Assembly (NCBI GenBank): GCA_937873145.1
Contig: CALMVK010000110.1
Location: 21,353-54,546 of the forward strand
Direction of reading: 5' to 3'
DNA from: an uncultured Granulicella sp.
GTDB taxonomy: Bacteria > Acidobacteriota > Terriglobia > Terriglobales > Acidobacteriaceae
DNA: 33,194 nucleotides
Shown here: positions 357 to 21,480 of the stretch, one piece after another
How positions within the stretch are numbered: position 1 is the stretch's first letter
Layout of the letters: the number at the start of each line of letters is the position of its first letter
The notes under the pieces: model-generated
The model's database searches: none
What the model was told of the DNA's origin: nothing
What the model saw: the letters and a program-made list of their open reading frames with translations, nothing else
Program-made: the position numbers and the translations under genes

Positions 357-478
357 ATGGGACTCGGGAAGAAGTACCAACCTGAGCAGGTGGTCAATCT
401 GTTGCGGCGGATCGAAGTGGCCGTAGCGAACGGGAAAGGCGACGGCTCTGGCGTGTAAGGAAGCCCGGATCAACGGGA
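357..478 (+). pseudogene. Relic of IS3-family transposase orfA, frameshifted
   Basis: From the ATG at 357 the frame reads MGLGKKYQPEQVVNLLRRI and continues EVAVANGK, the typical beginning of IS3-family OrfA proteins (helix-turn-helix that binds the element ends). At about 435-439 an extra base in GGGAAAGG throws it out of frame. One frame over, the expected continuation ATALACKEARI is found, matching the family pattern of an A-C-K/R-E-A-G-I turn. Homology stops after about 40 residues; the rest of orfA and all of orfB (the DDE integrase-like part) are absent. It cannot make a transposase. Seen: the two halves in neighbouring frames. Known: the OrfA pattern. Inferred: an old IS3 insertion that has decayed. 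Confidence 0.6.
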
Positions 479-548: not shown

Positions 549-1079
549 ATGCACAGAGCTCATTCCAGGTGGGTGTGGAGGGTTATCCTACAATTCGTGG
601 ATCGATCAAAACATCCCTTAAGGCTTAAACCTTCGCTGGCAAAGTTTCGGAGTGATCCTCACGAGGCTTACCTTCGGCTGCAAATCATGGCCAGCCATCT
701 GTCCCATGAGGTCGACCAACTGCTTCGTTCGTTCGATATCTCACAACCTCAGTTCAACGTACTCCGCATTCTTGCGGGAGTTGGTTCGGAGGGTTTGGGA
801 CGGAACGACATTGCTGCACGCATGATAACAACCACCCCAGACATGACCCGCCTGCTGAACAGGATGATGGAAAAGGGCTGGATTCTCCGTGCGCGCGGAA
901 CAGAGGATCGCCGTGAAGTGCCAACGACCCTGACTTCCTTAGGAAAGCAGTTGCTGAAGAAGATTGATGACCCCCTGGATTGCCTACACACACGACAATT
1001 TGAGACCGTCAGTCCCAAAGAACTGCGGCGTTTGTTGAAGCTGTTGAAGACCATCACTACAACCGAGCCATACTCTTGA
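549..1079 (+). CDS. MarR-family transcriptional regulator
   Basis: Up to 176 residues with the MarR winged-helix core: helix SHEVDQLLRSFDISQPQFNV, then LRILAG, the recognition region GLGRNDIAARMITTTPDMTRLLNRM, and the beta-wing signature ILRARGTEDRREVPTTLT around DRR. MarR proteins are dimeric repressors that usually sense small phenolic or oxidising compounds. The start is uncertain: ATG 549 has only a weak GGGA before it, and GTG 597 is in frame and gives a length more usual for the family (about 160). It lies 80 bp before a ring-cleaving-type VOC oxygenase, with a near-ideal palindrome between them, so it probably represses that gene. The arrangement recalls Bacillus MhqR/CatR controlling CatE/MhqE-type dioxygenases. 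Regulator family is secure; ligand and target are inferred. Confidence 0.88.
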   Translation: MHRAHSRWVWRVILQFVDRSKHPLRLKPSLAKFRSDPHEAYLRLQIMASHLSHEVDQLLRSFDISQPQFNVLRILAGVGSEGLGRNDIAARMITTTPDMTRLLNRMMEKGWILRARGTEDRREVPTTLTSLGKQLLKKIDDPLDCLHTRQFETVSPKELRRLLKLLKTITTTEPYS

Positions 1080-1114
1080 TACCTTGATGAGTCCTTTTTG
1101 CGACCGGCACATCC

Positions 1115-1138
1115 CATTAGGTGTTGATACACCTAATG
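1115..1138. promoter_or_regulatory. Perfect palindrome, candidate MarR operator
   Basis: Two perfect 10-bp inverted arms, CATTAGGTGT (1115-1124) and ACACCTAATG (1129-1138), flank a 4-bp spacer TGAT. The arm length and dyad geometry suit a MarR dimer. It lies between marR and the VOC gene, ending 8 bp before the ribosome binding site of the latter, where a bound repressor would block transcription. No similar site was seen before marR itself. Confidence 0.6.
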
Positions 1139-1159
1139 TACTTTTAAAAGAGGTTGCTG

Positions 1160-2062
1160 ATGGCTTCCGCCCAAATTTCTTCTTTTGGTTCAAACGCTGT
1201 AGGTATTCAGCCCCCCAGTTTTCGCCTGCCGGATGCAACGCATGTAGGTCTTGTCAGCTTGGCGGTTTCCAGTCTGAAAGCATCGATTGCCTTTTATCAC
1301 GAGGTGATCGGCTTGGCCGTGCTGAAACAAGATGCGACCACGGCTGAGCTGGGTATTGGCGAAACAGCACTGCTGAATCTTAAGGAGCTTCCTGGAATTC
1401 AACCGATCGGCCGCCGTAAACGGCTGGGTCTCTATCACACAGCATTTCTGTTACCAAGCCGAGCTGCGCTCGGCAGCTTTACTAGCCATTTGAACCGGCT
1501 CGGCGTGTACTTCGGGGCGGGCGATCACCTCTACAGCGAAGCCCTCTACCTGACCGATCCGGATGGACTCAGCGTGGAAGTTTACGCCGACCGCCCTCGC
1601 AGCACCTGGAAGAGCAATGGTACGGAACTGCTAAGCGCGACGAACAGTGTCGATATCGGAAGTCTGATTGCCGCCGGCGATGGAGAATGGCACGGTGCGC
1701 CAGCCGGAACGACGGTGGGACATGTTCACTTTTATATTGGCGATCTTGAGAAGGCAGCACGCTTCTATCACGAGGCCATGGGCTTTACGATCATGACGTG
1801 GAGTTACCCGGGTGTACTGTTCATCTCCGCGGGTGGCTATCACCACCATGTCGGCCTGAATGTCTGGGCGGCAGGGTCCCCGCAGGCAGGCCCCACCGAC
1901 GCGCGCCTTCTATCCTGGGAGCTGGTCCTACCCGATCTCTCCAACCTCGAGGTACTTTACAAAAATATGAAACGATTGGGATGGGATTGCAGCCTCCAGG
2001 CCGACGGCAAACTGACCGCAACGGATCCGTGGGGCATCACGGTTCATGTTATTTCAGGTTGA
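1160..2062 (+). CDS. Two-domain VOC oxygenase, catechol-2,3-dioxygenase-like
   Basis: 300 residues when started at ATG 1160, which has AAAGAGG six bases upstream; an in-frame TTG at 1154 is less likely. Two glyoxalase/VOC domains are visible, about 25-145 and 183-300. Domain 1 carries a possible 2-His-1-Glu metal site: H28 (in THVGLVSL), H93 (in LYHTAFLL) and E140 (in DPDGLSVEVY). Domain 2 keeps H188/H190 and the HHH run at 228-230, but the position matching E140 is a histidine (DPWGITVHV, H296). The layout matches CatE/YfiE-like ring-cleaving dioxygenases, which open catechol-type rings using Fe(II) or Mn(II). It probably forms a module with the preceding marR. Substrate unknown; a non-oxygenase VOC function such as quinone or antibiotic resistance cannot be excluded. 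Confidence 0.82.
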   Translation: MASAQISSFGSNAVGIQPPSFRLPDATHVGLVSLAVSSLKASIAFYHEVIGLAVLKQDATTAELGIGETALLNLKELPGIQPIGRRKRLGLYHTAFLLPSRAALGSFTSHLNRLGVYFGAGDHLYSEALYLTDPDGLSVEVYADRPRSTWKSNGTELLSATNSVDIGSLIAAGDGEWHGAPAGTTVGHVHFYIGDLEKAARFYHEAMGFTIMTWSYPGVLFISAGGYHHHVGLNVWAAGSPQAGPTDARLLSWELVLPDLSNLEVLYKNMKRLGWDCSLQADGKLTATDPWGITVHVISG

Positions 2063-2309
2063 GCTTTACCTGCGTCACACATCACCGGCCAGCCCAGCAC
2101 GTAGCCGTTGATGTCGTGTTCCGTACTCTCTGAAACGACTCTCTCAGCTAGGTACGCTTTCCTTGCTCAATCCAAGTACGAGCCGCGTACATCACAAATT
2201 GATAACCTCCGCCTCCACCAGATCCAATTGGCACGGATTCGTTGGGACGGTGCAATTTCGTTCGAACCTGCAACGTATGGTTCTCAGCACGCCGCGGGTT
2301 CTTCTTCAC

Positions 2310-2999
2310 TCACTTTCCACCAGGAATGTTAAGAACCCCGTATAGAAACAGACGGACAACGTGCCTTACTCTAAGCGTGACTTCGGAGGGCGACACTCGA
2401 CCTCCGGTGAGAACCTTCAGCTGCAGGTTATTAATCAGACCGTCCAGGAAAATGGCGGCCGCGGCGTGCGGGTCTTCGAGCGCAAACACTTTTTCCAGAG
2501 CGCGTTTCGCCAGAAAGCTGCCCAGGATTGCATTGGCACTGTCCGGCCCGGGAGAAAAGAAGAATCTTGCAACCTCCGGGACGCGAGGTGCTTCGCTGAC
2601 CATGAGCCGATGAAAAGCGATCGCCTCGGGTTTCAGTATCGCTGTGAGCACCACATGGCCAACCTGCGTGAGCGCCTCTTCCAACGACAACGCTTCCAGA
2701 GCAGGACTGGCGAGTGCCTTTTTCATGGGTGCCAAAATCTCTGTACACAGGCGCTTCAACACAGTTTCAAACAAGCCCTCTTTCCCGCCAAAGGCACTGT
2801 AGAGATCGCGGTACGAACCGCCCGACTCGGCGATGATCTTTTCCAAAGACACGCCCTCATAGCCGTGTTGTAGAAACAGTCTGCTGGCTACAGCGGCGAT
2901 CGCAGCCGCTCGCTCGTCGGCACCCACGTTCGTTCTACGCGCTGGCCGTGACGGCTTGAGCGATTGCTGAACCTGCTGAATGGGCTGCTTGGACTTCAT
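2310..2999 (-). CDS. TetR-family transcriptional regulator
   Basis: 229 residues. The N-terminal TetR helix-turn-helix is clear at about 28-75: AAIAAVASRLFLQHGYEGVS, then LEKIIAESGGSYRDLYSAFGG followed by KEGLFETVL. The C-terminal ligand domain holds EAIAFHRLMVSEAPRVPEV and resembles the AefR-like TetR C-terminal family. Residues 1-27 are a basic tail rich in Q, P and R. It is transcribed divergently from the bicupin dioxygenase at 3130; the 130 bp between them holds alternating ATGGTA/TACCAT half-sites, so it very likely controls both itself and the dioxygenase. This parallels QdoR/LmrA (TetR) regulating qdoI in Bacillus subtilis, where flavonoids are inducers. Family call is solid; ligand is inferred. 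Confidence 0.9.
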   Translation of the reverse strand: MKSKQPIQQVQQSLKPSRPARRTNVGADERAAAIAAVASRLFLQHGYEGVSLEKIIAESGGSYRDLYSAFGGKEGLFETVLKRLCTEILAPMKKALASPALEALSLEEALTQVGHVVLTAILKPEAIAFHRLMVSEAPRVPEVARFFFSPGPDSANAILGSFLAKRALEKVFALEDPHAAAAIFLDGLINNLQLKVLTGGRVSPSEVTLRVRHVVRLFLYGVLNIPGGK

Positions 3000-3012
3000 T
3001 GGTAATCCAGGC

Positions 3013-3044
3013 TACCATCTCAATATGGTAATGCGTCTTACCAT
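3013..3044. promoter_or_regulatory. Three alternating half-sites, candidate TetR operator
   Basis: Between tetR and the bicupin gene lie TACCAT (3013-3018), ATGGTAA (3025-3031) and TTACCAT (3038-3044). The second and third form a perfect 7-bp inverted repeat with a 6-bp spacer. The first and second form a perfect 6-bp inverted repeat, also with a 6-bp spacer. The middle half-site is thus shared by two overlapping palindromes, with centres about 12-13 bp apart, allowing cooperative binding of two dimers. Confidence 0.65.
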
Positions 3045-3129
3045 CTGTTTAGCCTGCAAAGAGCTTGGTGTCTAGGCAGTACGATGAGATGCGGTTTCGC
3101 CAGGAAGTTCAGGTCCAACAGGAGTGAAA

Positions 3130-4056
3130 ATGAATCGTGAGCGCAAGCCGTATATGCTGACAAACCAGAACAGCACGGCGTTCTGGATGATCGATAACCT
3201 GTGGATGCCCTTGGCAACGAGCCACCATACACAAGACAACTTTTCACTCATGGAGCAGGTCTGCGGTACCGGAATTGGTGGACCGCAAACCCACATGCAC
3301 CCCACCGACGAAGGCATGCTGATCCTTGAGGGCCATGTCACTTTCCAGGTCGGCGGCCACGAGATCAAGGCTGGTCCGGGAACGTTTGCCTCCATCCCCC
3401 GAATGACCGAACACAGCTTCACCATTGATAAGCCATCTACACGGCTGCTCAATTTCTACACGCCGGGTGGGTTCGAAATGCTCATCATGAGCCTTGCCAT
3501 ACCGGCCCCGGAGCGCCGGGCTCCGGAGCCCGGAACAACACCCATGCCCCCGTACTGGATGACGATGGAGGCCTCCAGAGAGTTCGGGCAGTTTGCCGCT
3601 CCGACGATGCCCGTCGCAGACCCGCCGACGGACGAGCACAGAGTCACAAAACCGAGCGAGACCAACCCGACGCTGCCCTTCGGCGTGGAACTGGACAAAG
3701 CGCCAGTCTTCCAGTTGAAAGACAATCTGATTACGGTAGTTGCCTCCGCGGAGCAGACCGGCGGATCCTACTCCTTGTCGCGCCAGAAAAGACCAAGGGG
3801 CTCTGGACCCGCTGTCCATTCACACGAGCAGGACGAGGCCCTCTACGTGCTGGAAGGAGAGCTTACCCTCATCGCCGGAGAGGAACGATTCAATGCGACC
3901 GCAGGTTCGTTCCTGTACATCCCCGCAGATGTGCACCATAGCTTTCGCGTGGTGAGCGATGAAGTTCAACTTTTGAACTGGCACCTGCCTGGCTGCTCCG
4001 AGCAAATGCTGCTGAAAGCAGCAATTCCAGCAGCGGTTGGCACCACGAATACTTAG
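3130..4056 (+). CDS. Bicupin dioxygenase, quercetin 2,3-dioxygenase-like
   Basis: 308 residues from ATG 3130, chosen because AGGAG (3120-3124) sits five bases upstream; the GTG at 3124 overlaps that site. Two cupin barrels are visible. Cupin 1 has HMHPTDEGMLILEG with H55, H57, E61 and H95. Cupin 2 has HSHEQDEALYVLEG with H230, H232, E236 and H270. Both therefore keep the full 3-His-1-Glu metal set, as in Bacillus QdoI, where both domains bind Fe or Mn and cleave the flavonol heterocycle, releasing CO. Length also fits QdoI (about 330). No signal peptide, so cytosolic. It is divergent from a TetR regulator with a shared operator. Other bicupin substrates are possible; cupin specificity cannot be read from sequence. 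Confidence 0.8.
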   Translation: MNRERKPYMLTNQNSTAFWMIDNLWMPLATSHHTQDNFSLMEQVCGTGIGGPQTHMHPTDEGMLILEGHVTFQVGGHEIKAGPGTFASIPRMTEHSFTIDKPSTRLLNFYTPGGFEMLIMSLAIPAPERRAPEPGTTPMPPYWMTMEASREFGQFAAPTMPVADPPTDEHRVTKPSETNPTLPFGVELDKAPVFQLKDNLITVVASAEQTGGSYSLSRQKRPRGSGPAVHSHEQDEALYVLEGELTLIAGEERFNATAGSFLYIPADVHHSFRVVSDEVQLLNWHLPGCSEQMLLKAAIPAAVGTTNT

Positions 4057-4226: not shown

Positions 4227-4773
4227 ATGGTAAGTTTGCGGGATGAGTTGAGCGAGGCGCAGTGGCGGCGGCTTGAGTCCTTGTTGCCTGGTCGTGTGGG
4301 CACGGTAGGTCGGCCTGCGGAAGATAATCGGCGTTTTGTAAACGGGGTGCTCTGGGTGATCCGCTCGGGCATGCGCTGGGCCGACCTTCCGGAGCGTTAC
4401 GGCAAGTACAAGAGCGTGCACGCCCGCTTCATCCGCTGGGCTGAAGCGGGCGTGTGGGATCAGCTGTTCGACGAACTGGTTGCGGACCGAAAGAACCCAT
4501 ACCGTATGCTCGATTCGACCATCGTCCGGGCTCACCAGCAGGAGGCCACGGGCCGCAAAAAGGGGGGCGAAGATAAGGCTCTGGGGCGTTCCCGAGGTCG
4601 TCTGAGCACCAAGATTCACCTGCTCGCCAACGGCCTGGGGGGAACCCATTGCGTTCCGGCTGACCGGCGGCCAGGAAGGTGAGGTTGCCCAAGCCTTGCC
4701 GCTGCTGGCTGGTCGCCAGGCCGAGATCGCCTGCGCGTGGCTACACCTGGAGAAATATGTCGATACGGCCTAG
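4227..4773 (+). pseudogene. IS5-family transposase, frameshifted and internally deleted
   Basis: The N-terminal part is a good IS5-family (IS427/IS1031-like) transposase: LRDELSEAQWRRLESLLPG, NGVLWVIRSGMRWADLPERYG, then the first catalytic Asp in DSTIVRAHQ and GRSRGRLSTKIHLLANGLG. At a run of six G (4637-4642) the frame shifts by one; the following frame carries EPIAFRLTGGQEGEVAQAL and PLLAGRQAE. This then jumps directly to IACAWLHLEKYVDTA and a stop, which looks like the natural C-terminal tail. The block with the second Asp (GDKGYDS-type) and the catalytic Glu is missing, roughly 90-110 residues by comparison with family length. The protein cannot catalyse transposition. The G-run shift could be a programmed frameshift in the parent element or a mutation. 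Confidence 0.75.
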
Positions 4774-4782: not shown

Positions 4783-5340
4783 CTAGAACGGACTGTCTGC
4801 CTTCAGCAAAGCCCATTCCATCCGCAGATACCCGCGCCGCTTCAGGTGGACGCCGTCACTGTAGGCGTTTGGATGTCCATGCAGCGCGCTCGCGTAGTCG
4901 ACTACCGCGACCTTTCGCTGCGCAGCTAGTCGTACGATTCCCGTATCGAGAGCACGTACCGCCGGCAGGTACCGCCCGCTCTCTTTATAGATAGGAGGAA
5001 TTTCAGCCAGCACCGGACGTACCCCCGACGCGCGAGCCAAGTCCACCATCCGGCCCAGGTTGCTCAGGGTCAACGCCGGATCCAGCGCCTGCAGCGTATC
5101 GTTGGTGCCTCCCAAGATCACCACCTCGCGATATTGCCCTGCAGAGATCTGCCGCGGAAACCGCTCCAGCATCTGCGCCGTGGTCTCTCCGCGGATGCCG
5201 AGATTCGCCCGAGGAAAGGACCAGCCCCACGTGAGCGAGTCGCCCATAAACGCAACCCGGCGGCTCGCATGATTCAGCCGCGGAAGCACAACGGCCAACG
5301 CAACCAAAACCACCAGCAGCCCTGCCAACGTTCGTCGCAT
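4783..5340 (-). CDS. SGNH/GDSL-type hydrolase, membrane-anchored or secreted
   Basis: 185 residues, started at ATG 5338-5340, which has GGAGG nine bases upstream. Residues 4-20 form one hydrophobic segment (signal anchor or signal peptide) after MRR. The four SGNH blocks are present: block I FMGDSLTWGW (nucleophile S35), block II glycine in NLGIRGETT (G49), block III GGTND (N80) and block V SDGVHLKRRGY (D162, H165). Such enzymes remove acyl or acetyl groups from lipids or polysaccharides at the cell envelope; lysophospholipase L1/TesA-like is the nearest type. It is divergent from the KdsC-like gene with 33 bp between the start codons. The stop lies just outside the IS5-type element, so the insertion sits in its 3' flank and may affect its terminator; the protein looks complete. 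Confidence 0.85.
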   Translation of the reverse strand: MRRTLAGLLVVLVALAVVLPRLNHASRRVAFMGDSLTWGWSFPRANLGIRGETTAQMLERFPRQISAGQYREVVILGGTNDTLQALDPALTLSNLGRMVDLARASGVRPVLAEIPPIYKESGRYLPAVRALDTGIVRLAAQRKVAVVDYASALHGHPNAYSDGVHLKRRGYLRMEWALLKADSPF

Positions 5341-5373: not shown

Positions 5374-5967
5374 ATGATCTCGCTTGAAGACGCGCAGGCC
5401 CGCGCTCGCAACATTAAAGTGCTTATCTTCGATGTCGACGGCGTCCTGACCGACGGCGACATCACCCTCATCCCGCAGCCCGACGGCTCCGGTGTTGAGG
5501 TCAAAAGCTTCACCGCGCATGATGGCCTCGGCATCTCGCTGGCCCGGCTGGGAGGCCTGCGCACCGGCATCATCACCAAGCGCCAAAGCCAGACGGTTGC
5601 CCTGCGCATGCGCGACCTCAAGATGGAGTTCGTCTACCAGGGCCAGGCGCACAAGCTGAAGGCCTTCCAGGAAATCCTCGCCAAGGCTGAAGTGACCGCC
5701 GACGAACTTTGCTATGTCGGCGACGATATCGTCGACCTTCCCATCCTGCGCCTCTGCGGCCTCGCCATCGCCACCGCCAACGCTCGCCCGCAGGTCAAGC
5801 AGGCGGCCCACTGGATCACCCCGCTGCCCGGAGGCCAGGGCGCCGGCCGCGACGCGATCGACTTCATCCTCATCGCCCAGGGATCGCTCGACCGCGTCAT
5901 CGAGCAGTACCTCGACGCCAGCAATCCCGCCGCCCAGGCCAGCGACATCGGCGCAGGCAATATGTAA
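5374..5967 (+). CDS. HAD phosphatase of the KdsC (KDO-8-phosphate) type
   Basis: 197 residues, starting at ATG 5374; a much longer upstream frame is open but is just the antisense of the hydrolase. Motif I is FDVDGVLTDG with the nucleophile D20 and acid/base D22; then HDGLGISLARLGGLRTGIIT with the motif II Thr and KRQS supplying the motif III-like Lys; and motif IV GDDIVDLPIL. This order and the compact C0-type core without a large cap fit KdsC, which dephosphorylates KDO-8-P in lipopolysaccharide synthesis as a tetramer in the cytosol. The C-terminus is about 25 residues longer than usual. Neighbouring KDO genes are not in view, so a different sugar-phosphate substrate is possible. Ends 33 bp before the Lhr helicase. 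Confidence 0.82.
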   Translation: MISLEDAQARARNIKVLIFDVDGVLTDGDITLIPQPDGSGVEVKSFTAHDGLGISLARLGGLRTGIITKRQSQTVALRMRDLKMEFVYQGQAHKLKAFQEILAKAEVTADELCYVGDDIVDLPILRLCGLAIATANARPQVKQAAHWITPLPGGQGAGRDAIDFILIAQGSLDRVIEQYLDASNPAAQASDIGAGNM

Positions 5968-6000
5968 GCGAACAACAGGCGAACGCGGTACCATCGATTT

Positions 6001-9000
6001 ATGCTGGCCGAGACACCCGTCATTGCTTCCCTCGCCTGGGCTCATCCCGTCGTCCAGGAGTGGTTCGTCGCCAAGTTTGGCACGCCCACCGAGCCCCAGG
6101 AGGCCGGCTGGCCGCACATCCTCGCCGGCGAAACGACCCTCATCTCTGCGCCTACAGGCTCCGGCAAAACCCTGTCGGCGTTCCTCGTCGCCATCGACCA
6201 GCTCCTGCGCAAGGCCATTGCTGGAACCCTTGCGTCCGTCACGGAAATCATCTACGTCTCGCCCCTCAAAGCCCTTTCGAACGACATCCAGAAGAACCTC
6301 GACGCTCCCCTGGCCGAGATCCTTGAGCTCGCCCTGACCCGCGGTTACCTCGCGACCACCATCCGCACCGGCGTCCGCACTGGCGATACCTTGCCCAGAG
6401 AGCGAGCCGCCATGCTCCGCCATCCGCCACACATCCTGGTCACCACGCCGGAATCTCTCTACATCCTCCTCACCGCTGGCAAGTCCCGTGAGAATCTGCG
6501 CCGCGTTCATACCGTTATCGTCGATGAGATCCATGCTGTGGCCGACGACAAACGCGGCGCCCATCTCGCCCTTTCGCTGGAGCGCCTCGAAGCCCTCGTG
6601 TGCGGCGAAAACCAGCTTAGCCCCGGAGCTTTCCTCACCGGGCTGGCCACTCCGCCCCAGCGCATCGGCCTTTCCGCCACCCAGAATCCCATCGAGCTTG
6701 TCGCCGACTTCCTCACCGGCAGCCACCCCTCACGCCAACCCGCCAAAATCGTCCAGGTCGGCCAGCGCCGTCATCTCGACCTCGCCATCGAGGTCCCTTC
6801 CGACGAACTCGGCTCCATCGCCTCCATCGCCATGTGGACCGAACTCTTCGACAAGCTCGCCACCCTCACCGAGAATCACCGCAGCACGCTCGTCTTCGTC
6901 AACACCCGCCGCCTCGTCGAAAAGATCGCCTTCGAGCTGTCCGAGCGTCTCGGCCCCGAGCACGTGGCCGCGCACCACGGCTCACTCTCCCGTTCGCTCC
7001 GCCTCGACGCCGAACAACGCCTCAAGCGCGGCGAGATCAAGATCCTCATCGCCACCGCCTCCCTTGAGCTCGGCATCGACATCGGCAACGTCGACCTCGT
7101 CTGCCAGATCAATACAACCCGCGCCGTCGCCGTCGCCATGCAGCGCGTCGGCCGTGCCGGACACTGGCGCGGAGCCATCCCCAAAGGCCGCTTCTTCGCC
7201 ACGACCCGCGACGACCTTCTCGAGCAGGCTGCCCTGATCCGCAAGATGCGCGCCGGCGAGTTGGATCAGCTCGAGATCCCCGAAGCACCGATCGACGTCC
7301 TCATGCAGCACATCGTGGCAGCCTGCGGAGCCGAGCCCTGGCGCGAAGACGCGCTCTTCAACGTCTTGCGCCGAGCATACCCTTACCGCGCGGTCACCCG
7401 CGAGCACTTCGAGGAACTCCTTAAGCTCCTCCACGAAGGCATCGAGTCCAGCCGCGGCCGGTACGGCGCCTACCTGCTGCGCGACGGCGTTCACGGCGAG
7501 CTGCATCCCCGGCGCGGAGCCCGCATGATCGCCATCGCCAACGGCGGAGCCATCCCCGACACCAGCCTCTTCGCGGTGATCCTGCAACCCGAGGGCGTGC
7601 AGATCGCCACCCTCGACGAGCACTTCGCCGTCGATTCCTCCCCTGGCGACGTTGTGCTGCTCGGCAACTCCAGCTGGCGCATCCAGAAGATCGAGTCCGC
7701 CGGCCGCGTCCTGGTTGAAGACGCGCACGGAGCCCCGCCCAGCATTCCCTTCTGGGAGGGCGAAGCGCCGCAGCGCACCGGCGTCCTCTCGGACGGCGTC
7801 GGCGACTTACGCGAAGAAATCTCCGCCCGCACCCCTGACGTCTTCCCCTCCGCGCTTCACCCCACCCATCCGCAGGTTGCCGAAGCCGTCTCCTGGCTTC
7901 AGGCAGAAACCGGAGTCTGCCGAAGCGGCGCGCTCCAGCTCATCGCCTACGTCGTCGCCGGTCGCGCCATGCTCGGCGCGGTTCCGTCCAAAACCACGAT
8001 CATCGCCGAGCGCTTCTTTGATGATGGCGGCGGCATGCAGCTCATCCTGCATGCCCCTTTCGGCGGACGCGTCAACAAGGCTTGGGGTCTTGCCCTGCGC
8101 AAACGCTTCTGCCGCGGCTTCAACTTTGAGCTCCAGGCCGCCGCCACCGACAACGGCATCAACATCTCGCTCGCCGAGCAGCACAGCTTCCCGCTTGCCG
8201 ACGTCTTCCACTTTCTCACCGAGCACACCGCGCAGGAGCTCCTCGAACAAGCCTCGATCACCTCGCCTATCTTCAAAAATCGCTGGCGATGGGCGGCTGG
8301 CCGCAGCCTGCAACTGCTGCGCATGCAGAAGGGCAAACGGGTCGCTCCGCAGATCCAGCGCACCCGGTCCGACGACCTGATGGCCAACGTCTTCCCCCAG
8401 GCCGCGGCCTGCTTTGAGACCATCGTCGGCGACATCCAGATCCCCGACCATCCGCTGGTCCGCGAGGTCATGAAGGACGTACTCACCGAAGCCATGGACA
8501 TCGACGGCCTCGTCGAAATCCTGCGCGGCATCGAGCAGGGCACCATCCGCTGCCTGGCTGTCGACACACCGACGCCCTCGGTCTTCGCGCATGAGCTCAT
8601 CAACGCCATGCCGTACGCCTACCTCGACGAGGCTGGAGCCGAAGAACGCCGCGCCCGCGCTACCACGTTGCGCCGCGGCCTGCCTTCCACGGCCCCCAAC
8701 GAGCCACGCCATCTCGATCAGGCGGCCATCGACACCGTCCGCGCCGAGCTCTGGCCCGATCTGCGCGATGAACATGAGCTGCACGACCTGCTCCTCTCGC
8801 TTGTCCTTCTGCCACTCGCCTTTCTCGACACCGAGAAAGCAGCTGGCTGGCCGTTGTTTTACGAGCGTCTCGCCCGCAACAACCGCGTACAAACCATCGA
8901 AGTCCACGGCAAACCCTGCTGGATCGCCGCCGAACGTCTTCCTGCCATCGCATCCTTTACAGCCCAAAACTCTCCCGGAACCGAACCGGTTACAGATTCC

Positions 9001-10476
9001 GAGCACATCCTGCAATGTGTTCAGGGATGGTTACAAATTCTCGGTCCCGTGACTGCCAGCAGCCTCTCCACCCTGACCAGCCTGCCCGCCGCGGAAATCT
9101 TCAAAGCGCTTCTCGCCATGGAGATGCAGGGTCTTGCCTTGCGTGGAGCCTTCGAGCACCCCGCTCTTACCTCCTTCGATCCCGATCACGAGATCGAGTG
9201 GTGCGAGCGCCGCATCCTCCAGCGCATCCACCGCCTCGCCCTCGGCACCCTGCGTAAGGCCGTCGAGCCCGTCACTCCATCCATCTACCTGCGCTGGCTG
9301 CTCGGTTGGCAGCACCTTGCCCCACAGACGCAGCTCGCCGGAGAAGAAGGCCTGCTCGAAGTTCTCTCGAAGCTCGAAGGCTTTGAGGCTCCGGCTGTCG
9401 AGTGGGAGCGCACTTTGCTCCCGGCGCGCGTCGCCAACTACGACCCCCGCTGGCTTGACGCACTTTGCCTCTCCGGAGCCGTCGGCTGGGGACGCGTCTC
9501 TCCGCACCCGGCCTGGAACGTGGGCCAGGGCTCTGCTCCGCGCCGCGTCATCCCCACCAATGCCGCACCCATCACCTTCTTCGTCCGCGAGTCCGCCGAC
9601 TGGCTGCCGCACGCGCTCGCAGCCCAGTGTGTCGACGAGAGCACCTTGCTCGCCGCGCTCAGCCCCGACGCCCTCGCCGTCCGCACCCTCCTGCGCCAGC
9701 GCGGAGCCTGCTTCTCAAACGACCTCCAACGCCTGCTGGCCTTCACCCGCCCTCAAACCCAGCAGGCCCTATGGGAGCTCGCCACGGCCGGCATCGCCTC
9801 GGCCGACGGCTTCGACCAGCTGCGCGGCATGATGGACCCCCGACGGCGCGCCGCAAGCCAAACCAGCTCGGCAGCCGCCGCACCCAACAGCCTGAACAAA
9901 CGTGCCGCCGCCCGCACCACTGCTGGCCGTTGGTCGCTGCTCTGCGACGAGGCCGAGCCGCCCGCGCCCGTCGCCAAACCCACCCCTGCGGAACGCCAGG
10001 CCCAGGCCATCGCCGAAGCCCGCCGCCTCGACGCCGCACATGAGTCCGCCGCCCGCATGCTGCTCTGCCGTTACGGTGTGCTCTTTCGCGATCTGCTCGA
10101 GCGCGAGTCGAACGCCCCCAGATGGCGCGACCTGCTCGGCGTGCTCCGCCGTCTTGAAGCCCGCGGCGAGATTCGGGGAGGCCGCTTTGTCTCCGGCTTC
10201 GGCGGCGAGCAGTTCGCTCTCCCCGAGGCGGTCGACTCCCTTCGCGACGCGCGCAGTCGCACCTGCGTCCACGAGATCCCAGTCGCCGCCGCCGACCCCA
10301 TGAACCTCGTCGGCATCGTCATCCCCGGCCTTCGTATCGCCGCCGTCCCAGGACGCCATCTTCGCTTCCGCAACGGCACGCTGGTAACGGACGAAACTCC
10401 ATCGACCGAGCTCCCCAGCCCGGATGCAATTGCAACCGTGCTCCCGACGGCTTCTGCGGAGCGACGGTTATTCTGA
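6001..10476 (+). CDS. lhr: Lhr-type large ATP-dependent helicase
   Basis: 1491 residues, close to the 1500 or so of E. coli Lhr. Superfamily 2 motifs are in order: Q-motif region PTEPQEAGW, Walker A APTGSGKT (50-57), Walker B DEIH (175-178), motif III LSATQNP, motif V ATASLELGIDIG and motif VI QRVGRAGH (from 381). These are followed by the Lhr winged-helix and beta-barrel and a long C-terminal half that in E. coli Lhr holds tandem winged helices and has been linked to DNA repair. It unwinds RNA:DNA or DNA duplexes in the 3'-5' direction in characterised homologues. Start is ATG 6001 without a strong ribosome binding site. A DUF5522 gene follows 4 bp after the stop. Codon use is strongly GC-rich, like a resident housekeeping gene. 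Confidence 0.93.
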   Translation: MLAETPVIASLAWAHPVVQEWFVAKFGTPTEPQEAGWPHILAGETTLISAPTGSGKTLSAFLVAIDQLLRKAIAGTLASVTEIIYVSPLKALSNDIQKNLDAPLAEILELALTRGYLATTIRTGVRTGDTLPRERAAMLRHPPHILVTTPESLYILLTAGKSRENLRRVHTVIVDEIHAVADDKRGAHLALSLERLEALVCGENQLSPGAFLTGLATPPQRIGLSATQNPIELVADFLTGSHPSRQPAKIVQVGQRRHLDLAIEVPSDELGSIASIAMWTELFDKLATLTENHRSTLVFVNTRRLVEKIAFELSERLGPEHVAAHHGSLSRSLRLDAEQRLKRGEIKILIATASLELGIDIGNVDLVCQINTTRAVAVAMQRVGRAGHWRGAIPKGRFFATTRDDLLEQAALIRKMRAGELDQLEIPEAPIDVLMQHIVAACGAEPWREDALFNVLRRAYPYRAVTREHFEELLKLLHEGIESSRGRYGAYLLRDGVHGELHPRRGARMIAIANGGAIPDTSLFAVILQPEGVQIATLDEHFAVDSSPGDVVLLGNSSWRIQKIESAGRVLVEDAHGAPPSIPFWEGEAPQRTGVLSDGVGDLREEISARTPDVFPSALHPTHPQVAEAVSWLQAETGVCRSGALQLIAYVVAGRAMLGAVPSKTTIIAERFFDDGGGMQLILHAPFGGRVNKAWGLALRKRFCRGFNFELQAAATDNGINISLAEQHSFPLADVFHFLTEHTAQELLEQASITSPIFKNRWRWAAGRSLQLLRMQKGKRVAPQIQRTRSDDLMANVFPQAAACFETIVGDIQIPDHPLVREVMKDVLTEAMDIDGLVEILRGIEQGTIRCLAVDTPTPSVFAHELINAMPYAYLDEAGAEERRARATTLRRGLPSTAPNEPRHLDQAAIDTVRAELWPDLRDEHELHDLLLSLVLLPLAFLDTEKAAGWPLFYERLARNNRVQTIEVHGKPCWIAAERLPAIASFTAQNSPGTEPVTDSEHILQCVQGWLQILGPVTASSLSTLTSLPAAEIFKALLAMEMQGLALRGAFEHPALTSFDPDHEIEWCERRILQRIHRLALGTLRKAVEPVTPSIYLRWLLGWQHLAPQTQLAGEEGLLEVLSKLEGFEAPAVEWERTLLPARVANYDPRWLDALCLSGAVGWGRVSPHPAWNVGQGSAPRRVIPTNAAPITFFVRESADWLPHALAAQCVDESTLLAALSPDALAVRTLLRQRGACFSNDLQRLLAFTRPQTQQALWELATAGIASADGFDQLRGMMDPRRRAASQTSSAAAAPNSLNKRAAARTTAGRWSLLCDEAEPPAPVAKPTPAERQAQAIAEARRLDAAHESAARMLLCRYGVLFRDLLERESNAPRWRDLLGVLRRLEARGEIRGGRFVSGFGGEQFALPEAVDSLRDARSRTCVHEIPVAAADPMNLVGIVIPGLRIAAVPGRHLRFRNGTLVTDETPSTELPSPDAIATVLPTASAERRLF

Positions 10477-21223: not shown

Positions 21224-21480
21224 TCTGCTCAGGATAGTCGCAAGAGCGGAAAAGGCGCGAATAGTTTACTACGACTTATGGGTTGCAAGGCACGCACGGC
21301 GGGCTGAGGAAGGAATGGGCGGTCAGGTCTTCAGCTAAAGTGAAAGCCGCGAACGTTTGCCCTTTCGCGATGGGCCCGGAGTCTGAACGGGAAGCGCGCG
21401 TTTCACCTTGGACGGCGAAGCTCAGAGAGCATTGCGGGAACTGCAATGGTGGAAGTCGCGGGACGTTGGCCGGCAACAGG
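21224..21480. other. Intergenic stretch, no gene seen
   Basis: Between the small membrane gene and the hairpin downstream of htrA. A 66-codon minus frame from a TTG is open but shows no ribosome binding site or motif. Nothing else is recognised. Confidence 0.4.

Follow-up and report, generated by a model that had tools for sequence, protein, structure and literature searches.

Two genes for putative ring-opening dioxygenases lie side by side in the genome of an uncultured Granulicella sp., each next to a repressor gene of a different family and each with operator-like palindromes of its own. Are these the parts of one conserved pathway for plant phenolics, or separately controlled units that came to lie together? 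Acidobacteria are abundant in acidic, humic soils. The locus, composed of a MarR-family gene, a VOC-family gene, a TetR-family gene and a bicupin gene, lies within a stretch of 33,194 nt (positions 21353 to 54546 of contig C110, CALMVK010000110.1), referred to here as the window. The draft genome comprises 4.18 Mb in 344 contigs and is 90.85% complete. On balance, we lean toward the view that the locus belongs to an accessory island of independently switched cassettes for the detoxification of aromatic, polyphenolic or quinone compounds. A conserved flavonoid module or pathway is not supported.

Gene organization of the locus

The four open frames lie where a sequence-only reading had placed them. 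That reading described two dioxygenase modules side by side, each with its own repressor and operator, and the frames, the Pfam families and the distinct operator-like palindromes bear this out. The four-gene layout stands with small corrections of the gene starts, as the VOC gene more likely begins at the ATG at 1160 and the bicupin gene at the ATG at 3130. The observation is correct, and its grounds are firmer than could be seen at the time it was made.

The first cassette is encoded on the plus strand. It comprises a MarR-family repressor gene (549-1079; Pfam MarR, 9e-11), conserved from about residue 33 onward, and the gene of a two-domain VOC protein of 300 amino acids (1160-2062; Pfam Glyoxalase/dioxygenase superfamily, 1.5e-17). 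In the second cassette, a TetR-family repressor gene on the minus strand (2310-2999; Pfam TetR_N and TetR_C_7, 2e-18, an AefR-type C-terminal domain) diverges from the plus-strand gene of a bicupin of 308 amino acids (3130-4056; Pfam Cupin_2 in two stretches, 2e-24). None of the four proteins reaches a curated NCBIfam cut-off, and no precise enzyme name is available from that source. A promoter scan returned one site, against 1.9 expected, and this site lies away from the cassette promoters. Rfam and tRNA scans of the window gave no matches.

The MarR-VOC cassette

The candidate MarR operator (1115-1138) is a perfect palindrome, CATTAGGTGT-TGAT-ACACCTAATG, with 10-bp arms, a 4-nt spacer and no mismatch, located 21 bp 5' of the VOC ATG. 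It is the sole inverted repeat of at least 7 bp between the MarR and VOC genes, and none of 50 sequences made by mononucleotide shuffling of the DNA upstream of VOC matched it. Within the draft genome, no further copy was found within two mismatches, against two for the reversed-pattern control. In the palindrome scan of VOC upstream regions, the window served as the positive control.

We then compared the 20-base site of the window with 220 bp around the VOC start at 17 other loci. A site with 4 to 6 mismatches occurs at -27 to -44 from the VOC gene in all four loci with a related MarR gene upstream, namely two of the same genus (L023 and L025) and two Deinococcus plasmids (L039 and L040, the latter with the width of three genes between MarR and VOC). 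When each of these loci was shuffled 200 times, its mismatch level was attained between zero and two times. At six or fewer mismatches, the site was found in none of the remaining 13 loci, of which 11 were checked for a MarR gene by tblastn and two (L122 and L123) by annotation within 3 kb only. Such a split has a probability of 0.0004 if the loci are taken as independent, which they are only in part; moreover, L023, L025 and L028 had been noticed before the scan, and L124, included in the VOC alignment, was left out of it. A weak operator-like site with seven mismatches (a level reached by 5 of 200 shuffles) is present at L028, where no MarR was detected, and at L024 a MarR gene of 33% identity lies downstream of the VOC gene and there is no site. 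Because the footprint recurs in the MarR-bearing relatives, the MarR-site-VOC unit is probably an old cassette.

At the locus of the closest VOC relative (G023), the adjoining MarR gene is split over two frames and is probably broken (L023:9188-9476). The VOC frame of this locus is nevertheless open, and its operator-like site is still present.

The MarR protein has a single cysteine, at residue 145, and its nearest solved chain is 3u2r (E 1e-23). As for the VOC protein, the residues H93, E140, H188 and H190 are invariant among 18 aligned sequences. When the alignment profile was matched to homoprotocatechuate 2,3-dioxygenase (1f1r), H93 fell on H214 and E140 on E267, which we take to be iron ligands of that enzyme. 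Residue 31, where a third ligand would be expected in the same domain, varies, so that H188 or H190 of the second domain is the likelier third ligand. These comparisons suggest a CatE/extradiol-like VOC protein. In this respect, they are in line with the ring-cleaving type proposed earlier. The suggested hand-over of a bicupin product to the VOC enzyme found no support. At E 1e-30 the VOC gene is present in 10 of 99 other genomes searched, all of the same genus. The protein was rejected as an orthologue of MhqO, given its 23% local identity to the MhqO-type protein encoded to the left of the window, and as a member of the 3oaj/4huz family, neither of which was among the 47 matches of the VOC profile at E 0.001 (1zsw, of the same group, matched at 9e-6).

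Single-cupin genes are found near CatE-like VOC genes in Deinococcus taeanensis (L040), on a Paenibacillus plasmid (L122) and in a metagenome-assembled genome (MAG) of Planctomycetota (L074).

The TetR-bicupin cassette

A quercetinase-type fold of the bicupin is supported both by sequence and by a predicted model. By sequence, the best solved relatives are chains of the Bacillus subtilis quercetinase QdoI (E 1.5e-21). The model, derived from a four-sequence alignment (pLDDT 80.8), matches QdoI in Foldseek at E 5e-26, with a VIA Z of 33.1 to QdoI (8hfb), about 30 to a fungal quercetinase and at most 22.7 to the others listed. Both cupins carry the HxHx3E motif plus a further histidine, that is, a 3-His-1-Glu site, and both putative metal sites are complete (H55, H57, E61, H95 and H230, H232, E236, H270) and invariant in the four sequences. 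The earlier description of the enzyme as quercetinase-like is thus sound as regards the predicted fold and the two metal sites; cleavage of a flavonol is a prediction.

Bicupin genes of this kind are rare. When 396 genomes from the phylum were searched at E 1e-15, five gave a match, all of them within the genus. One of the five is the genome studied here, and the others hold a 61% fragment (G024) or half-length matches of 35-39% (three genomes). A first contig scan with the bicupin alone as query gave no confirmed match. A collection of 84,980 species, scanned with two degenerate peptide patterns only, yielded 73 loci. The full-length relatives come from two acidobacterial MAGs (58-59% identity) and one Acetobacteraceae MAG (38%).

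A decayed bicupin fragment, 56-61% identical and cut at both ends, lies at L034:8068-8547 in a same-genus relative (on the same contig as L052), adjoining isochorismatase-like and nitroreductase-like genes that were labelled by eye. The cut fragment indicates decay of the bicupin gene in one relative at least.

The TetR protein is NalC-like over both its DNA-binding and ligand domains, as judged by comparison with solved chains, the nearest being NalC 8ke8 (E 5e-26, residues 21-212). We rejected it as an orthologue of QdoR, as NalC was the nearest of 13 solved sequences at E 1e-4; these are PDB chains only, and none of them is named QdoR, YxaF or LmrA. No TetR match was found at E 1e-25 in 99 other genomes searched, and a search of plasmids gave only relatives of less than 60% identity, one of which adjoins a DoxX gene.

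Two candidate operators lie in the divergent intergenic region. The first (3025-3044) is a perfect 7-bp inverted repeat with a 6-nt spacer, ATGGTAA-N6-TTACCAT, and the second (3000-3017), TGGTAA-N6-TTACCA with one mismatch, directly precedes the TetR start. The perfect palindrome is single-copy in the draft genome. At up to two mismatches it has six forward places, one of which is the neighbouring site, versus three for the reversed control. A MarR-type site was not found at the TetR-bicupin cassette, nor a TetR-type site at the MarR-VOC cassette; nothing in the sequence thus points to joint control.

A third unit to the left of the window

To the left of the window, the contig continues across a scaffold gap of 100 N into a third related unit. 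There we found a flavin-reductase-like gene, a second MarR gene, a pirin gene, an MhqO relative and an Abhydrolase_2 esterase gene. The unit, of MarR-pirin-MhqO-MhqD type, is cut by the gap (L018:18434-19604 and L019:11646-13253, both on C110). The pirin has a quercetinase C-terminal domain (YhhW, E 3e-63), and the MhqO relative matches 3oaj at E 1.3e-94. Its residues H9, H218 and E265, in the contexts GLHHV, VHHIAF and LFEMA (matched by eye), lie near the ligand positions of MhqO, where His, His and Glu occupy positions 11, 218 and 266 (PMC12673573). The left-hand VOC protein therefore appears to have the His-His-Glu triad of the MhqO/PcpA kind. The esterase (Pfam Abhydrolase_2, 1e-20) carries the motif GFSQG and is of MhqD type by position; its frame runs into the gap.

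A search of 99 other genomes at E 1e-60 found MhqO relatives in 20. At 12 of the 21 MhqO loci, which were fetched, an esterase gene is adjacent in all 12, a second MarR gene in 3 and a pirin gene in 1. None of these 12 loci has a match to the window's MarR, VOC, TetR or bicupin at E 1e-5. We also considered that MhqO and the CatE-like VOC might usually be neighbours. Five other genomes hold both (G045, G023, G039, G030 and G058), but there the two genes fall on separate contigs or are separated by more than 200 kb. In G012 (L158) the order MarR-pirin-MhqO-esterase is the same as here, and is followed by an FMN-reductase-like match.

Conservation and genomic context

The sequence-only reading had proposed a plant-phenolic module, to be checked by a search for the four-gene neighbourhood in relatives. 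The module fails this check, as the pair of cassettes was found together in no other genome examined. The bicupin is absent from all 11 VOC loci of the genus, each examined over some 8 kb to either side, where the sole TetR match is 28% identical and 2.4 kb from the VOC gene (L026). Conversely, the MarR-VOC pair was found at none of the four loci of bicupin relatives (58-59%, 38% and the 56% fragment), and the window's TetR was not found beside the two relatives of 58-59%. Among the 73 scan loci, at E 1e-4, there was no match to the window's MarR, one to VOC (L074, in pieces) and two to TetR. One of the latter (L050, 44% identity) covers the helix-turn-helix region only; in the other (L055, Rhodanobacteraceae), a bicupin-like gene of 26% identity lies about 1.1 kb from a TetR gene of 30%, on the opposite strand.

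Next to the cassettes, a conserved chromosomal block begins at about 5.37 kb with the genes of an HAD phosphatase (KdsC-like by eye) and an Lhr helicase (5374-10476, plus strand, by Pfam). These two genes are adjacent in all 12 relatives fetched, out of 43 other genomes with a KdsC match. None of these 12 has the left-hand genes of the window within about 10 kb of KdsC-Lhr, and the DNA to the left of KdsC differs between the two relatives that were read. On the right, the cassettes adjoin an IS5-family transposase remnant (4227-4770, plus strand; NF033580, 158.8 bits against a cut-off of 110), broken by a frameshift near 4640 and ending early. On the left lies a 33-residue remnant of a multi-copy element (357-455, plus strand), recognized by its recurrence in 7 of 21 genomes searched, its own included, at up to five places per genome and several times at contig ends. 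This piece gave no Pfam match at E 0.001 and no PHROG match, and the expected transposase match was not found; we presume that it is IS3-like. Thus, of the two insertion sequence remnants noted earlier, the one on the right is well identified, and the one on the left is established as multi-copy. As the two are different sequences, a composite transposon was rejected.

The cassettes lie in accessory DNA, because the DNA is variable to the left of the conserved block and is accompanied by remnants of two different elements. The hint at acquisition given by the first reading agrees with this position beside element remnants and with the absence of the left-hand genes from the 12 relatives.

Proposed function and alternative explanations

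We propose that the two cassettes act in parallel and not as consecutive steps. In the first, MarR would bind GGTGT-N4-ACACC just 5' of the VOC gene and block it until released by a catechol- or quinone-type ligand, and the CatE-like, metal-dependent enzyme would then open the catechol ring. In the second, the NalC-like TetR would bind the two sites in the divergent gap and block both its own gene and that of the bicupin; a plant-type phenolic would release it, and the QdoI-fold bicupin may cleave a flavonol-like ring. Neither PF00775 nor PF02900 gave a match in the draft genome, where these two families, and no other ring-cleavage families, were searched for; the same searches were each positive in 4 of 14 control genomes. 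On the basis of these two absences, we hold with moderate confidence that parallel detoxification is more likely than a complete route of catabolism.

Several points weigh against this reading. The preference for detoxification over catabolism depends on the absence of two families from a draft genome. The base composition supports acquisition weakly, as the GC content of the cassettes (0.553) is lower than that of the DNA just to the right (0.657) and of the rest of the window (0.597), and is close to that of the leftmost 20 kb of the contig (0.556). The bicupin is 22-24% identical to QdoI and may therefore act on a different substrate. In the VOC enzyme, either H188 or H190 may be the third metal ligand, and a single-sequence model of the protein failed (pLDDT 37). 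The candidate TetR sites lack comparative support, no close TetR relative having been found. Both adjoin the start of the TetR gene, whereas 86-130 bp separate them from the ATG of the bicupin, so that autoregulation of TetR is the safer inference and control of the bicupin is less sure. The palindrome upstream of VOC was also flagged as terminator-like. Finally, the third unit is joined to the window only across the 100-N gap, and its esterase scores 33.5 bits against the NCBIfam MhqD equivalog, whose cut-off is 325.

Among the alternatives, the most serious is that the cassettes are functionally unrelated and are neighbours only since both landed in one variable region. This could well be the case, even if we do not think it probable. 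Their absence together elsewhere, the mobile-element remnants on both sides and the variable DNA to the left of the conserved block all agree with it. However, three neighbouring units all encode enzyme families of catechol, quinone or flavonoid type, and the proximity of single-cupin to CatE-like VOC genes at L040 and L122, whatever its base rate, also speaks for a functional relation.

It is also quite conceivable, though somewhat less so, that the bicupin has the quercetinase fold only and is a metal-dependent dioxygenase of another small aromatic compound or a diketone. Besides the low identity to QdoI, this is suggested by a C-terminal tail about 35 residues shorter than in its relatives, and by the neighbours of the 58-59% relatives, which are other regulators (AraC and LysR), a hydrolase and an HlyD-type exporter protein. 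Against it, the quercetinases form a separate top cluster in the structural comparison (Z 30-33, the next being 22.7).

A more ambitious version of our proposal would see an acquired polyphenol arsenal. Three stacked, independently sensed units, with three repressors and four ring-opening enzymes of three families (pirin, two VOC kinds and bicupin), would give combinatorial protection against mixed plant and humic phenolics, and the MarR / GGTGT-N4-ACACC / CatE-like unit would be an undescribed regulatory system common to Acidobacteriota and Deinococcota. We consider this rather unlikely in its entirety.

Less credible still is a single flavonol pathway in which the bicupin cleaves the ring of quercetin-type flavonols and, once the depside has been split, the catechol so released is cleaved by the VOC enzyme. 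The quercetinase fold and the quercetinase-type pirin and esterase nearby fit such a route. Furthermore, an Acidipila MAG (L050) has a gamma-resorcylate-decarboxylase-like gene (536-1519; 3s4t, E 1.5e-67) about 4.5 kb from the 58% bicupin relative, with an apparent exporter operon between the two (HlyD by Pfam, the rest by eye). The decarboxylase-like gene is plausible for a trihydroxybenzoate fragment and is the sole hint at a flavonol-type product among the neighbourhoods. Nevertheless, the pairing of MarR-VOC with TetR-bicupin is not conserved, the operator-like sites are separate and dissimilar, and the draft genome has neither PF00775 nor PF02900.

Equally improbable is that the island serves the catabolism of lignin biaryls by an MhqO-MhqD-UbiD route, as proposed for Paenibacillus sp. 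B2, in which DDVA induces the mhq genes as well as ubiD (PMC12673573). The near-ligand residues of the MhqO relative, the GFSQG motif of the esterase and the presence on this contig of UbiD together with a flavoprotein, presumably UbiX, are in line with it. On the other hand, UbiD lies about 17 kb from MhqO on a contig with scaffold gaps, and the unit fits quinone resistance equally well, as in mhqRED of Staphylococcus aureus (PMC6798810). Last, that the palindrome at 1115-1138 is the terminator of the MarR gene rather than an operator is very unlikely: despite its 10-bp stem, 4-nt loop and T-rich tail, its core sequence is kept upstream of VOC in the four MarR-bearing relatives, which argues that it is not merely a terminator, and the full stem is not kept in the L025 copy.

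Relation to known systems

Each cassette is individually of a known kind. The analogy with Bacillus QdoR, drawn in the sequence-only reading, holds for the layout only, given that TetR is nearest to NalC. In QdoR-QdoI (YxaF-YxaG), a TetR repressor gene is near a bicupin quercetinase gene, presumably so in B. subtilis, and on a Priestia plasmid genes of these two kinds are annotated side by side. QdoR-type control involves two operators in the target promoter (PMC8481877). Here there are likewise two candidate TetR sites; the genes are divergent, however, and the bicupin has the low identity to QdoI given above. NalC of Pseudomonas aeruginosa is also divergent from its target operon and responds to phenols; chlorinated phenols modulate it, and the natural effector is expected by the authors of that study to be a plant phenolic (PMC3290565). 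Unlike the predicted dioxygenase target in the window, the target of NalC is PA3720-armR, and hence efflux.

The MarR-VOC cassette resembles CatR-CatDE of B. subtilis, in which a MarR-type regulator controls a CatE-type catechol 2,3-dioxygenase and which has been linked to quinone and catechol resistance (PMC6212828). CatR, a redox sensor of the MarR/DUF24 type, has Cys7 (PMC6798810), whereas the single cysteine of the window's MarR, at residue 145, is not the N-terminal redox cysteine of CatR. Genes for DoxX adjoin VOC relatives in Paenibacillus and Deinococcus plasmids. CatD is, we assume, a DoxX protein, yet no DoxX gene was seen beside MarR-VOC in the window.

The left-hand unit has the make-up of the MhqR-controlled mhqED and mhqNOP operons of B. 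subtilis and of mhqRED of S. aureus, that is, MarR, a ring-cleavage VOC protein and a carboxylesterase. In S. aureus, MhqR, MhqE and MhqD have been linked to quinone and catechol resistance, and the MhqR operator is a 9-9 bp repeat of TATCTCGAA-type (PMC6798810), from which the GGTGT-N4-ACACC palindrome of the window differs. MarR, MhqO, MhqD and, elsewhere, UbiD are also features of mhqPOD of Paenibacillus sp. B2; these genes are induced by a lignin biaryl and are proposed to degrade it, and the available part of that article mentions no bicupin, pirin or CatE-like cassette (PMC12673573).

The modest novelty lies in finding three such units stacked in a single region of an acidobacterial genome, and in the MarR operator prediction, which is precise, lends itself to a quick test and would apply to two phyla (Acidobacteriota and Deinococcota). 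Among the matches listed in a literature search, no paper joined quercetin dioxygenase or quercetinase with Acidobacteria. The locus would offer ready-made, separately switched pairs of sensor and enzyme for phenolics in Acidobacteria. Should the enzymes turn out to be active, it would be one more example of an island that carries a defence against phenolics from plants and humus; otherwise it has no general consequence.

Neighbouring genes

Between the IS5 remnant and the KdsC-Lhr block, a gene for a GDSL/SGNH-type hydrolase (label by eye) lies on the minus strand (4783-5340); it has no match beside KdsC in the 12 relatives fetched. Further to the left on the same contig (L018:1158-4924), a row of genes encodes a UbiD decarboxylase, two proteins labelled by eye as a luciferase-like monooxygenase and a small VOC protein, and a UbiX-like flavoprotein; together they possibly form a hydroxyarylic acid decarboxylase set.

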